From positions 6,847,074-6,911,073 of the forward strand of contig NZ_CP041186.1 of NCBI RefSeq assembly GCF_006517175.1: 64,000 nucleotides of DNA. Reading direction: 5' to 3'. Positions within the stretch are counted from its first letter, which is position 1; every line of letters begins with the position of its first letter. The position numbers and the translations under genes are program-made. This document shows, in pieces, positions 28,690 through 53,940 of this stretch. The stretch is from Persicimonas caeni (GTDB taxonomy: Bacteria > Myxococcota_A > Bradymonadia > Bradymonadales > Bradymonadaceae). The notes beneath the pieces are model-generated. The model did no database searches. It saw only the letters and a program-made list of their open reading frames with translations, and was not told where the DNA came from.

Positions 28690-28757
28690 CGAGTTTACGA
28701 GGGCAAGATGCCCCCGCACCGAGTTTACGAGGGCAAGATGCCCTTGCTCCGAGGGTT
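28690..28757 (+). repeat. Tandem 30-bp GGGCAAGATGCCC repeats
   Basis: Units at 28690-28719 and 28720-28749 (CGAGTTTACGAGGGCAAGAT... each) form the 3' exon of the intron and end a few bases before the stop of the convergent AsmA-like gene. Each unit has a 5-bp-stem hairpin. They are likely located in the shared 3' untranslated region. Confidence 0.85.
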
Positions 28758-46407: not shown

Positions 46408-46732
46408 AAATTCTGCTCCGGAGGCATCGGGTGCTGCATCTCTGCCTATAGGCGGGGCGATGGCACATGTCCACAGCCATCAGGCTCGCTGGCGCCTCCG
46501 TTCACACCCATCGAGTTTGACGACCGTGTCCCTTGGAGTTATTAATTGCCTAGTAACTCAGTGGGGATTGTGTGTATAGCAGGCGCAATCGCCCGCCGCG
46601 CCGGCGACGGCTGGATCTTTATTCGTCGGGAACGTATGCTGCTCGCCGCTTGTTTGGAGCGTGAAAGGGCATTCCTTGCCGGTCGGTTTTGTGCCGCCTG
46701 ATTCTGTACCGCTCGATAGGGCGTGACATTTT
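46408..46732. promoter_or_regulatory. Divergent control region of cysteine cluster
   Basis: This 325-bp non-coding region lies between the EamA gene and the cysteine-synthase-like pseudoenzyme gene. An AT-rich dyad GAGTTA(N12)TAACTC is present at 46536-46559, overlapping TTATTAATTGCCTAGTAA. It would be a reasonable operator or promoter core. No riboswitch-like structure was recognised. Confidence 0.3.
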
Positions 46733-47701
46733 ATGAAAGCAGTAACCGAGAAACTCGAAGCCACTGTCAACAGCACCGATTCGGGTGCCGAACGAGCGGG
46801 GACGGATTTGCGAGCCGTGCGACGCATAGACGAGCTGGTCGGGCAGACGCCTCTGGTCAAGCTCAATCGAGTCGTCGATGACGATGGCCCGGACGTCTAC
46901 GTCAAGATGGAGAACGTCAACCCGAGCGGGTCGATTCGCGACCGGTACGTCAGCGAGATCGTCACCCGTGCGGTCGACGCCGGCTATATCGTGGCCGGGG
47001 ACGAGCTGGCCATCGCCGGCGTGGACGACTCGTCGGTGGCCGCCGCGCTGCTGACCAACCTGTTGCAGCTGCGCCTGCGCGTGTTTGCTCCGTCGCACTC
47101 GAGCAAGCGGCTGTTGCCGCTCATCGAGCGCTACGGCGCAGAGATTGTGTGGACGGATGAAGACAAAGGTCTGGGCGGCGCCATCGACGCGGCTGCCACC
47201 TGGGCGCGCCAGGCGGCCGACCGCATGTACGTCGACGGTTACCGGCGCCAAGCAGTCACCGACTCGTATGCCGACATGGCTGACGAACTCCTCGAGGCGC
47301 TCCATGGGCGCATTCTCGGGGCGTTCATCACGTCAGTGACCACCGGCGGCACCTTCCGCCACGTGGCCAAGGAGTTGCGTGAGACTCACCCGGCCTTGCA
47401 GGTCGGGGGCGCGGTGTTGACCGACAATGACTTTTCGGATTTGACCGGTCACGCTTATAACCGGCTGCGCAAGGTCAGCCTGAGCGAGGCCTGGGAGATG
47501 CGCGACCGCATCGCCCGAGAGGAGGGGCTGCTTTTGGGGCCCAAAGGCGCTGCCGCAGTGCTCCTCGCCATCGAGATGCGCAAAGATGTGCCCGAACAAG
47601 AGGCGATCGTGGCGTTGAACCCGGATTCGGGCCAGCGATATCTCGGTTGGGAGCAAAAACAACTCTTCGAGGTGACCTTTCACCCCGACTCGGCCCACTG
47701 A
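46733..47701 (+). CDS. Catalytically dead cysteine-synthase paralog
   Basis: This 322-residue protein has the fold-type II PLP enzyme pattern of CysK/CysM: ELVGQTPLVKLNRV at the start, KMENVNPSGSIRDRYV, TTGGTFRHVAKEL, and the C-terminal LNPDSGQRYLGWE. Two invariant elements are lost. The PLP Schiff-base lysine (NPxGSxKDR) is Arg69 (codon CGC at 46937). The substrate loop TSGNTG is replaced by AGVDDSS at ~95-101. PLP-dependent cysteine synthesis is therefore not expected. It precedes a sulfur carrier and an intact CysM on the same strand, so a regulatory or partner subunit role is likely. Confidence 0.85.
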   Translation: MKAVTEKLEATVNSTDSGAERAGTDLRAVRRIDELVGQTPLVKLNRVVDDDGPDVYVKMENVNPSGSIRDRYVSEIVTRAVDAGYIVAGDELAIAGVDDSSVAAALLTNLLQLRLRVFAPSHSSKRLLPLIERYGAEIVWTDEDKGLGGAIDAAATWARQAADRMYVDGYRRQAVTDSYADMADELLEALHGRILGAFITSVTTGGTFRHVAKELRETHPALQVGGAVLTDNDFSDLTGHAYNRLRKVSLSEAWEMRDRIAREEGLLLGPKGAAAVLLAIEMRKDVPEQEAIVALNPDSGQRYLGWEQKQLFEVTFHPDSAH

Positions 47702-47769: not shown

Positions 47770-48045
47770 ATGACTGTCAGTGTGAGAATCCCGACCCCGC
47801 TGCGAAAGTACACCGATGGCCAAGATCAGGTCAGCGTCGAGGGCGCGACCGTCGGCGAGGCCCTCGCCAACTTGGCTGAAGCTCACCCCGAGCTCAAAAG
47901 CCGCATCTTCGATGACAGCGGCTCGGTGCGTCGCTTCGTCAACGTCTTCGCCAATGACGAAGATATCCGCTTCCAGGACCAGCTCGACACCGAGCTGTCC
48001 GATGGCGACCAGGTCTCGATCGTTCCCGCCATCGCCGGAGGCTGA
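47770..48045 (+). CDS. cysO: Ubiquitin-like sulfur carrier (CysO/MoaD/ThiS family)
   Basis: This 91-residue beta-grasp protein (MTVSVRIPTPLRKYTDG ... LSDGDQVSIVPAIAGG) ends exactly in Gly-Gly, the tail that is adenylated and converted to a thiocarboxylate. Start ATG 47770 has GGAGTGA upstream. Adjacent to CysM-type synthase and JAMM peptidase genes, it matches CysO of the Mycobacterium CysO-CysM-Mec pathway rather than MoaD or ThiS. The thiocarboxylated tail donates sulfur to O-phosphoserine-derived aminoacrylate. The E1-like activator (MoeB/MoeZ) is not in this window. Confidence 0.88.
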   Translation: MTVSVRIPTPLRKYTDGQDQVSVEGATVGEALANLAEAHPELKSRIFDDSGSVRRFVNVFANDEDIRFQDQLDTELSDGDQVSIVPAIAGG

Positions 48046-48046
48046 A

Positions 48047-48994
<948 letters not shown>

Positions 48995-48995
48995 T

Positions 48996-49227
48996 ACTCG
49001 GTGCGGGGGCATCTTGCTCAAAACTCGGTGCGGGGGCATCTTGCCCTCGTTTGCGAGAGCAGGGATGCACTCGCGCCGAAAGAGGATACCAAAACTCGGT
49101 GCGGGGGCATCTTGCCCTCGTTTGCGAGAGCAGGGATGCACTCGCACCGAAAGAGGATACCAAAACTCGGTGCGGGGGCATCTTGCCCTCGTTTGCGAGA
49201 GCAGGGATGCACTCGCACCGAAAGAGG
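48996..49227 (-). repeat. 71-bp tandem repeats between cysM and JAMM genes
   Basis: There are three copies of a 71-bp unit (AACTCGGTGCGGGGGCATCT... at 49022, 49093 and 49164), preceded by a truncated unit at 48996-49018. Each contains CTCGGTGCGGGGGCATCTTG then CCCTCG, the exact reverse complement of the repeat unit hosting the group II intron at 28 kb. There is no promoter-like sequence other than the AAAGAGGGTGG ribosome region before 49236. Confidence 0.93.
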
Positions 49228-49235
49228 GTGGATCA

Positions 49236-49742
49236 ATGACTGATATTTGGACGAAGGATATTCTCGACAAGGTCGTCGCCTGGCTCGAGGCGGCCTATCC
49301 GGTCGAAGGTTGTGGGCTCATCCTCGAAAACGACGGCGAGTATCGCGTCCTCGAGTGTGAGAACCTCGCCGACAAGTACCACCAGATGGATCCGGAGCAG
49401 TTTCCCCGAACCGCCCGCGAGTTCTATATCATCGACCCGATGGAGTTCATGCGCGCCGAGGACCGCGGTGAGCGTGTGGCGGTGGTCTTCCACAGCCACG
49501 CCGATGTGGGCGATTACTTTAGCGACGAGGACGTCAACGCGGCCACGTTGCCGCGCGACAGCGACGACGAGCCGCTCGAGCCGAGCCACCCCGGGGTCGA
49601 CTACCTGGTCGTCTCCACCCGCGAAGACGGCGCCGACCACGCCACGCTCTTTCGCTTCGACGAAGAAGAGGAGGGCTTCCCCTCCGTCCTCGAGATCGAG
49701 ATCGAAGACGGCGAGTACGAGTTGAGCACGGTTACAAGCTGA
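49236..49742 (+). CDS. JAMM/Mov34 zinc peptidase (Mec-like)
   Basis: This 168-residue protein has the JAMM+ motif E24 (YPVEGCGLIL), H86-S-H88-(x7)-S96-xx-D99 (VVFHSHADVGDYFSDED). Zinc ligands and the catalytic Glu are therefore complete. In mycobacteria the equivalent Mec+ enzyme releases cysteine from the CysO-cysteine adduct. Immediate linkage to carrier and synthase genes supports that role here. The ribosome site AAAGAGGG is at the edge of the last 71-bp repeat. Its 3' end overlaps the convergent MBL gene by 11 bp. Confidence 0.92.
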   Translation: MTDIWTKDILDKVVAWLEAAYPVEGCGLILENDGEYRVLECENLADKYHQMDPEQFPRTAREFYIIDPMEFMRAEDRGERVAVVFHSHADVGDYFSDEDVNAATLPRDSDDEPLEPSHPGVDYLVVSTREDGADHATLFRFDEEEEGFPSVLEIEIEDGEYELSTVTS

Positions 49743-53453: not shown

Positions 53454-53903
53454 TCAGATTTGGTAGATCGGTTTGAAGTCGTCGCCGGCGAGTTCGGGGA
53501 CGGCGTCGGCGATCGATTGGATGGTGTAGGTCTGCAGCACCCGAATGGTCGCCGCACGCACCTCTTTCCAGACCGGGTGGAAGGCCTTTTGGCGGTCGGT
53601 AAGCGCGTCGCCGGCCGTCTTGTCGTGCAAAGCCACCGGCGCGACCGGGCCGTCGAGGTGGCGAATGATGTCGAGCAGCGTGATCTCGCTGGCCGGACGA
53701 GCCAGAAGATAGCCGCCGTTGGCGCCACGCTTGCTGCGCACGAAGCCGCCTCGTTTCAGGTCGGCCATGATCCCTTCGAGAAATTTGGCGGGAAGAGCCT
53801 CTTCGTCAGCGATGGCTTGAATGCTCATCGGGTCGTCGGAGCGAGCATTGGCGAGGGTGACGAGCGCTCGCAGCCCGTACATTGTGCGTGCACTGATATC
53901 CAT
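53454..53903 (-). CDS. Rrf2-family regulator without cysteines
   Basis: This 149-residue winged-helix regulator has MDISARTMYGLRALVTLA, MSIQAIADEEALPAKFLEGI and RSKRGANGGYLLARP of the Rrf2 family. It has no cysteine at all, so it cannot carry the Fe-S cluster of IscR or NsrR. In this it resembles CymR, the cysteine-metabolism regulator whose activity depends on CysK binding. A sulfur-carrier cysteine cluster lies 4-7 kb upstream, making CymR-like control a hypothesis. Start ATG 53903. Confidence 0.9.
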   Translation of the reverse strand: MDISARTMYGLRALVTLANARSDDPMSIQAIADEEALPAKFLEGIMADLKRGGFVRSKRGANGGYLLARPASEITLLDIIRHLDGPVAPVALHDKTAGDALTDRQKAFHPVWKEVRAATIRVLQTYTIQSIADAVPELAGDDFKPIYQI

Positions 53904-53940
53904 GAGACTACCGGGTTGGGTTAAGATAATGGGGGATTTG

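Follow-up and report, generated by a model that had tools for sequence, protein, structure and literature searches.

The 64,000-nucleotide stretch of DNA analysed here (the window) belongs to the genome of Persicimonas caeni, a single 8.05 Mb contig, and carries a short gene cluster headed by what is almost certainly a pseudoenzyme of the cysteine-synthase fold, here called PSK, with genes for a sulfur carrier, CysM and a JAMM peptidase after it (Table 1). The initial annotation had described the same company of an intact CysM, a sulfur carrier and a JAMM peptidase, and family profiles and motifs confirm it. It had also read the first gene as a CysK/CysM fold with Arg69 in place of the invariant Schiff-base lysine, with which the reading frame, the family match and the alignment all agree: the motif NPSGSIRDR occupies residues 63-71, which puts an arginine at residue 69, and Pfam PALP (PF00291) matches with an E value of 4e-37, as expected of a fold type II PALP protein. 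Measured against the curated NCBIfam cut-offs, PSK reaches 138.5 bits where TIGR01136 (CysK/CysM) demands 344.15, and 125.6 bits where the CysM equivalog demands 394.2, but the adjacent true CysM is also slightly under both (325 and 350 bits), so that the cut-off by itself is weak evidence on PSK. What a member of TIGR01136 should have, i.e., the Schiff-base lysine and the TSGNTG substrate loop, is missing from PSK. Automatic annotation would name this gene a cysteine synthase, wrongly on the present reading.

Table 1. Features of the PSK locus (positions are those of the window)
Feature	Position	Strand	Basis or remark
Inverted repeat GAGTTA-N12-TAACTC upstream of PSK, candidate operator	46536..46559	.	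window sequence
PSK (cysteine-synthase-fold pseudoenzyme, 322 aa)	46733..47701	+	ATG start; ORF translation, family profile, Pfam, model, alignment
Arg69 codon CGC, site of the PLP Schiff-base lysine (CysK Lys41)	46937..46939	+	sequence and column comparison
Arg171-Arg172, invariant PSK-specific pair at CysK residues 144-145 (Asn145)	47243..47248	+	ortholog alignment
Lys271, invariant PSK-specific residue at CysK Ser272 (PLP-N1 ligand)	47543..47545	+	ortholog alignment
ThiS/MoaD-fold sulfur carrier (CysO-like), C-terminus AIAGG	47770..48045	+	profile and sequence
CysM, catalytic Lys and TSGNTG intact, NPGGSVKDR, GTG start	48047..48994	+	profile and sequence
JAMM/Prok-JAB peptidase, Mec-like, metal motif HSH-x7-SxxD intact	49236..49742	+	profile; motif from sequence
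Rrf2-family regulator type B, C-terminus ...KPIYQI, candidate PSK partner	53454..53906	-	5.8 kb downstream of PSK

The active site was compared, in CysK numbering, across an alignment of 18 PSK with 68 further proteins of the PALP family, drawn from these genomes and related ones. Lys41 is an arginine in 18/18 PSK and a lysine in 67 of the 68 others; Ser272, which we take to be the residue binding N1 of PLP, is a lysine in 18/18 PSK and a serine or threonine in 66/68 others; and Asn145 is an arginine in 18/18 PSK as against an asparagine in 67/68 others. Position 144 is likewise an arginine throughout the 18, the Gln142 column holds Gly, Ala or Ser, the QFxNPA motif has become xRRxA in every PSK aligned, and the GIGAGF active-site segment (some 20 residues) is deleted from all 18. 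The initial annotation considered the TSGNTG loop to be gone, which is true of the motif only, as a loop of equal length, G-x-[DNTS]-[DN]-[SC]-[AS], stands in its place and the segment really lost is the later GIGAGF. Every aligned PSK is set apart by these changes from the O-acetylserine sulfhydrylases (CysK/CysM), with which it shares the fold, the PLP phosphate loop (Thr177 and Gly178 in 18/18, Thr180 in 16/18), the NPxGSxxDR frame and the C-terminal DSGQRYLG.

From the alignment columns it follows that four basic residues (Arg69, Arg171, Arg172 and Lys271) are fixed in or around the old active site, and together they look like a new anion-binding pocket and not like mere loss. PLP binding in the usual way seems unlikely, and PSK is probably free of the cofactor. 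Lys271 was considered as a migrated Schiff-base lysine and judged unlikely to be one, since its alignment column is that of Ser272, the N1 ligand, which puts it on the side of the ring away from where a Schiff base would form.

Within the same family, 15 of the 20 other genomes have a full PSK ortholog, as do four of five further genomes of the order; the carriers include Lujinxingia vulgaris TMQ2 and one Lujinxingiaceae MAG (Bradymonadales). All 20 full orthologs (19 relatives and P. caeni itself) have the arginine at the lysine site, and so does one partial copy (G010). As for the five same-family genomes with no full PSK, G010 and G020 have partial copies at contig ends, the contigs of G002 and G015 stop just upstream of cysM or inside cysO, and in G014 the search found no PSK. 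When the family profile was run against 379 genomes of the phylum, the full orthologs scored 378-504 bits and all other proteins at most 177, with the truncated copy of G010, at 180 bits, as the sole exception, a gap far wider than chance would give. A scan of the genome collection for two motifs conserved in PSK recovered, besides these orthologs, a single Oscillospiraceae protein, which is unrelated. The PSK family is restricted to one order. The Oscillospiraceae protein (L083:700-1527, in a MAG from goat rectum) belongs to the PALP family, has NPSGSLRDR and is without TSGNTG or the operon context; by its sequence it appears to be an independent case of lysine-to-arginine replacement.

Among three close species, dN/dS is 0.036-0.051 for PSK and 0.018-0.047 for CysM; PSK is under strong purifying selection and is not decaying. 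In a maximum-likelihood tree the PSK proteins form one clade (98/90) outside the operon CysM, which makes PSK an old paralog and rules it out as a tandem copy, or recent duplicate, of its CysM neighbour. PSK is almost certainly a conserved, non-catalytic paralog, and the earlier description of a conserved but catalytically dead paralog beside the active enzyme gains from both the invariance of the arginine and the low dN/dS. The loss of its catalytic residues, and the fact that one neighbouring CysM (in G022) also has no lysine, might give the impression of a degenerating relic or an artefact, but this is scarcely credible given the identical arginine in 21/21 sequences covering the site, dN/dS ratios so low, intact reading frames and conserved synteny. 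Homologs with the same arginine are thus not isolated, the gene is not pseudogenised in relatives, and a sequencing error at the CGC codon is rejected together with the pseudogene. The lysine-less operon CysM of G022 (L050:6935-7969; NPGGSVSDR, RASGDTG), which sits beside an intact PSK, could be either another dead paralog or a gene in decay.

Elsewhere in its genome P. caeni has a separate cysK beside cysE, a gene resembling cystathionine beta-synthase, and a MoeZ-like E1 whose N-terminus carries a rhodanese-like segment. Since a carrier ending in GG, a CysM, a JAMM peptidase and an activating E1 are all present, a complete CysO-type cysteine pathway is plausible in this genome, as judged by targeted searches only. 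The published Bradymonadales genomes, of 5.0-8.0 Mb, are those of bacteria described as amino-acid auxotrophs in which cysteine synthesis could still be completed from later intermediates (PMC7460792). The arrangement resembles the mycobacterial CysO-CysM-Mec system, where the GG-ending carrier, CysM and JAMM share one operon and a MoeZ-like E1 with a rhodanese segment is encoded elsewhere, and differs from it by what stands ahead of the carrier: an extra dead cysteine-synthase paralog and, for most relatives, an Rrf2 regulator gene. Neither of these two additions appears in the published open-access description of CysO-CysM-Mec.

PSK adjoins CysM in 16 of the 18 loci where the contig permits the test, those of G001 and G012 among them. 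G005 (one contig of 5.85 Mb) and G023 keep a PSK with its arginine and have no operon CysM. Targeted searches found no CysO in G001, G005 and G012, all of which keep PSK; in G004, which keeps it too, the sole CysO match is distant (28% identity) and lies elsewhere in the genome; and JAMM was not found in G001 and G012. In G005 (L046:7977-9341) PSK is followed directly by a divergent JAMM gene, with neither CysO nor CysM. The PSK-adjacent CysM of G001 and G012 (L047:841-1761 and L048:8885-9802) has itself diverged, with NPGGSGKDR and with STGSIG for TSGNTG.

In 12 of 20 loci PSK is directly preceded by a same-strand gene for an Rrf2/CymR-like regulator, here type A, which the initial annotation does not mention; eight of these loci are in the same family (G006, G009, G011, G013, G016, G017, G018 and G019) and four in other genomes of the order (G022-G025). 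Type A is absent upstream of PSK in P. caeni, where a second type, B, occurs on the opposite strand instead. Type B is common across the family, and in G000, G003, G004, G005 and G008, none of which has type A, it is found some 4-11 kb from PSK. In G001 and G012, whose assemblies are incomplete (84-87%), neither type was detected. The Rrf2 protein matches Pfam Rrf2 with an E value of 5e-35, and on the CymR equivalog NF047409 the Rrf2 proteins score 69-102 bits, below the cut-off of 195; the type B protein of the window is closer to CymR than to IscR (102 against 56 bits), an order that is reversed in the operon types.

Regulators of this kind also occur in other families. A second family of the class (G027, G030, G036, G039 and G041) has the gene order rrf2, a more diverged lysine-less paralog, cysO, cysM and JAMM, the contig of G039 stopping inside cysM, and in G033 rrf2, cysO and JAMM occur without PSK. 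The paralog of that family, which stands where PSK does in the operon, is a PALP-like protein of 244-281 amino acids in which Trp or His takes the place of the lysine (L063:1674-2408, L178:1839-2585, L183:7941-8786); its place on the tree is unsure, its branches being long, and it may be orthologous to PSK or may have lost the lysine independently. In four genomes of a third family a related Rrf2 gene lies beside or overlaps a JAMM-type match, and the Rrf2 proteins end in YMYFI.

All the operon Rrf2 proteins, and the type B protein of the window, share a C-terminus of the form aromatic-x-Ile (EGFVYVI, EGFTYVI, FIYII, FSYVI, LTYTI, PIYQI), with Tyr149 and Ile151 invariant in 15/15 aligned sequences and YQI at the end of all ten type B proteins checked, whilst none of the 13 other Rrf2 proteins from the identical search ends this way. 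Such a tail is of importance here because CymR is an Rrf2 regulator that represses in complex with CysK (PMC2869319), CysK stabilises it about 7-fold on DNA (PMC4961446), and a C-terminal isoleucine is the signal by which partners dock into the active site of CysK (PMC12895370), providing the greater part of the binding energy for CysE and being present in several other partners as well (PMC12895370; PMC4961446). Serine acetyltransferase was considered as the tail-docking partner and dropped, the CysE C-termini that were read having no terminal isoleucine and none ending in aromatic-x-Ile. The initial annotation had listed a regulator among the possible partners of the dead paralog, and this suggestion is now favoured by an adjacent Rrf2/CymR-like gene with a tail of the CysK-docking form.

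Compared with the CymR-CysK pair, then, we find a regulator near its would-be partner (directly upstream in 12/20 loci, 5.8 kb away in the window) and a regulator tail ending in isoleucine, but not the residues that hold the tail carboxylate in CysK. Thr68, Ser69 and Gln142 are replaced in PSK and only the change of Thr72 to Ser is conservative, so canonical docking of the tail cannot simply be assumed. An AlphaFold2 model of the PSK monomer (pLDDT 80.5, pTM 0.76) retrieved cysteine synthases throughout when searched by VIA-align, the best rows being entries of S. aureus CysK; among them 8t2c, which contains a CymR peptide, gave Z 27.9 and rmsd 3.7 over 280 residues. As rows within 1 Z are tied, the top place of a CymR-peptide entry is not evidence of CymR binding by PSK.

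Upstream of the rrf2 start, at 26-51 bp, stands a palindrome, TTGAC-N7-GTCAA, which is exact in G006, G009, G030 and G036, has one mismatch in G019 and two in G018 and G027. The exact form was never reached in 2,000 base-shuffled trials of each 70-base stretch, a result to be read with the motif having been picked after inspection and with G030 and G036 being near-copies. It was not found at the remaining loci, several PSK loci among them. This suggests possible autoregulation of the operon in the lineages that bear the motif and has no bearing on the window. The inverted repeat upstream of PSK in the window (Table 1) was tried as a conserved operator and given up, as it was not found in relatives.

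The explanation we prefer, and hold tentatively, is that PSK could be a dedicated non-catalytic partner of the Rrf2/CymR-like regulator controlling the cysO-cysM-JAMM operon. An old CysK/CysM-like paralog would have given up catalysis, by changing Lys41 to Arg and Ser272 to Lys and by deleting the GIGAGF loop, would have kept its fold and phosphate loop, and would have gained the basic set Arg69, Arg171, Arg172 and Lys271 in the old active site. Such a site would suit an anionic ligand, which might be the carboxylate that ends the Tyr-x-Ile tail of the regulator or, alternatively, a sulfur or serine metabolite reporting the status of the pathway. PSK would presumably bind the tail and modulate binding of the Rrf2 protein to DNA, and the pair would be a split-off version of the CymR-CysK complex, produced by division of labour. 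It is possible, and we put this more tentatively still, that the dead paralog encoded after a CymR-like regulator is a sensor, where the tail or an anionic sulfur metabolite in the basic site switches the thiocarboxylate operon. The Rrf2 adjacency, the Tyr-x-Ile tails, the purifying selection and the four invariant basic residues all point towards a regulator partner. Several facts speak against it, however. Its main weakness is that the residues holding the isoleucine carboxylate in CysK are themselves changed in PSK, and that the same genomes have active enzymes of the CysK, CysM and CBS types, at which the Rrf2 tail may really be aimed. Moreover, P. caeni has no type A gene and its type B gene is 5.8 kb off, in the opposite orientation; PSK is kept by G001 and G012, where neither Rrf2 type was detected; G033 has rrf2-cysO-JAMM without PSK; and the palindrome is missing at several PSK loci.

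The main rival, unlikely as we see it yet deserving serious thought, is that PSK serves the neighbouring CysM (or CysK) as an allosteric or stabilising subunit, forming a heterodimer and tuning the activity. Cysteine synthases are dimers and inactive paralogs tune activity in this manner in other enzyme families, and the near-constant adjacency of PSK to CysM extends even to G001 and G012, where no CysO, JAMM or Rrf2 of type A or B was found. Nevertheless, the retention of an arginine-bearing PSK in G005 and G023 without an operon CysM weakens the earlier suggestion of CysM where an obligate partner is meant, PSK is not a duplicate of that neighbour, and its conserved novelty sits in the old active site, which heterodimerisation alone leaves unexplained. 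A changed enzyme, which might bind PLP non-covalently or through Lys271, or use its basic pocket to act, without PLP, on a phosphorylated or carboxylated substrate, would make sense of the kept phosphate loop, the invariant Lys271 and the strong purifying selection; we consider it improbable, as Lys271 is at the N1 side of PLP and not at C4', the substrate loop is replaced and the GIGAGF loop deleted, and no gene of a new pathway is consistently attached. Doubtful to a slightly greater degree is a role for PSK in holding or presenting CysO in its thiocarboxylated form, with the basic pocket of PSK binding the (thio)carboxylate at the carrier's C-terminus. The two genes do share an operon, PSK has the pocket, and in the mycobacterial pathway it is the thiocarboxylated C-terminus of CysO on which CysM acts (PMC3227635), but PSK with Arg69 persists in G001, G005 and G012, where CysO is not detectable, and in G004, where the only match is remote, so that the sulfur carrier, also suggested earlier, is not supported as an obligate partner. 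Of the regulatory or scaffold role proposed in the initial annotation, it is the regulatory half that comes out strengthened, by the adjacent Rrf2 gene, and the carrier and CysM as obligate partners that do not.

If PSK is indeed a partner of the Rrf2 regulator, its closest known parallel would be the CymR-CysK complex of Bacillus subtilis and Staphylococcus aureus, which also joins an Rrf2 regulator of cysteine genes to a protein of the cysteine-synthase fold that accepts C-terminal isoleucine tails. There, however, CysK is an active enzyme, which takes the CymR tail into its active site, and the complex is physical, whereas PSK is catalytically dismantled, is encoded right after the regulator in most relatives, and is a putative partner of Rrf2. 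The rice mutant ASTOL1 S189N is alike in that an O-acetylserine (thiol)lyase acts through its complex with SAT and not through catalysis (PMC7925690), and unlike in being a plant point mutant, PSK being a naturally occurring paralog, found across an order, whose site has been rebuilt. The Planctomyces limnophila entry PDB 5xoq combines, by its title, a cysteine-synthase fold with a transcription-factor peptide, but is listed as an O-acetylserine sulfhydrylase.

Pseudoenzymes and the moonlighting of CysK are already known, CysK being a classic moonlighting enzyme that both makes cysteine and offers CymR, SAT and other proteins a place to dock. A search of the open-access literature, outside which most subscription papers lie, returned no case in which an inactive cysteine synthase goes together with an Rrf2 regulator; a natural, order-wide example inside a CysO operon, encoded along with a regulator of the CymR kind, would be new to that literature. 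If the preferred explanation is true, evolution has separated the two jobs of CysK and kept docking or sensing in a dead paralog, which would offer a clean system, free of enzyme activity, for finding out what the CymR-CysK complex senses. PSK and Rrf2 would also add a regulator to the CysO-CysM-Mec pathway, for which open-access descriptions gave none.

The window also has, between cysM and the JAMM gene (49019-49227), a 71-bp tandem repeat in 2.9 copies with a 99% match, an 18-mer of which recurs at 28704-28721, suggesting a dispersed repeat.
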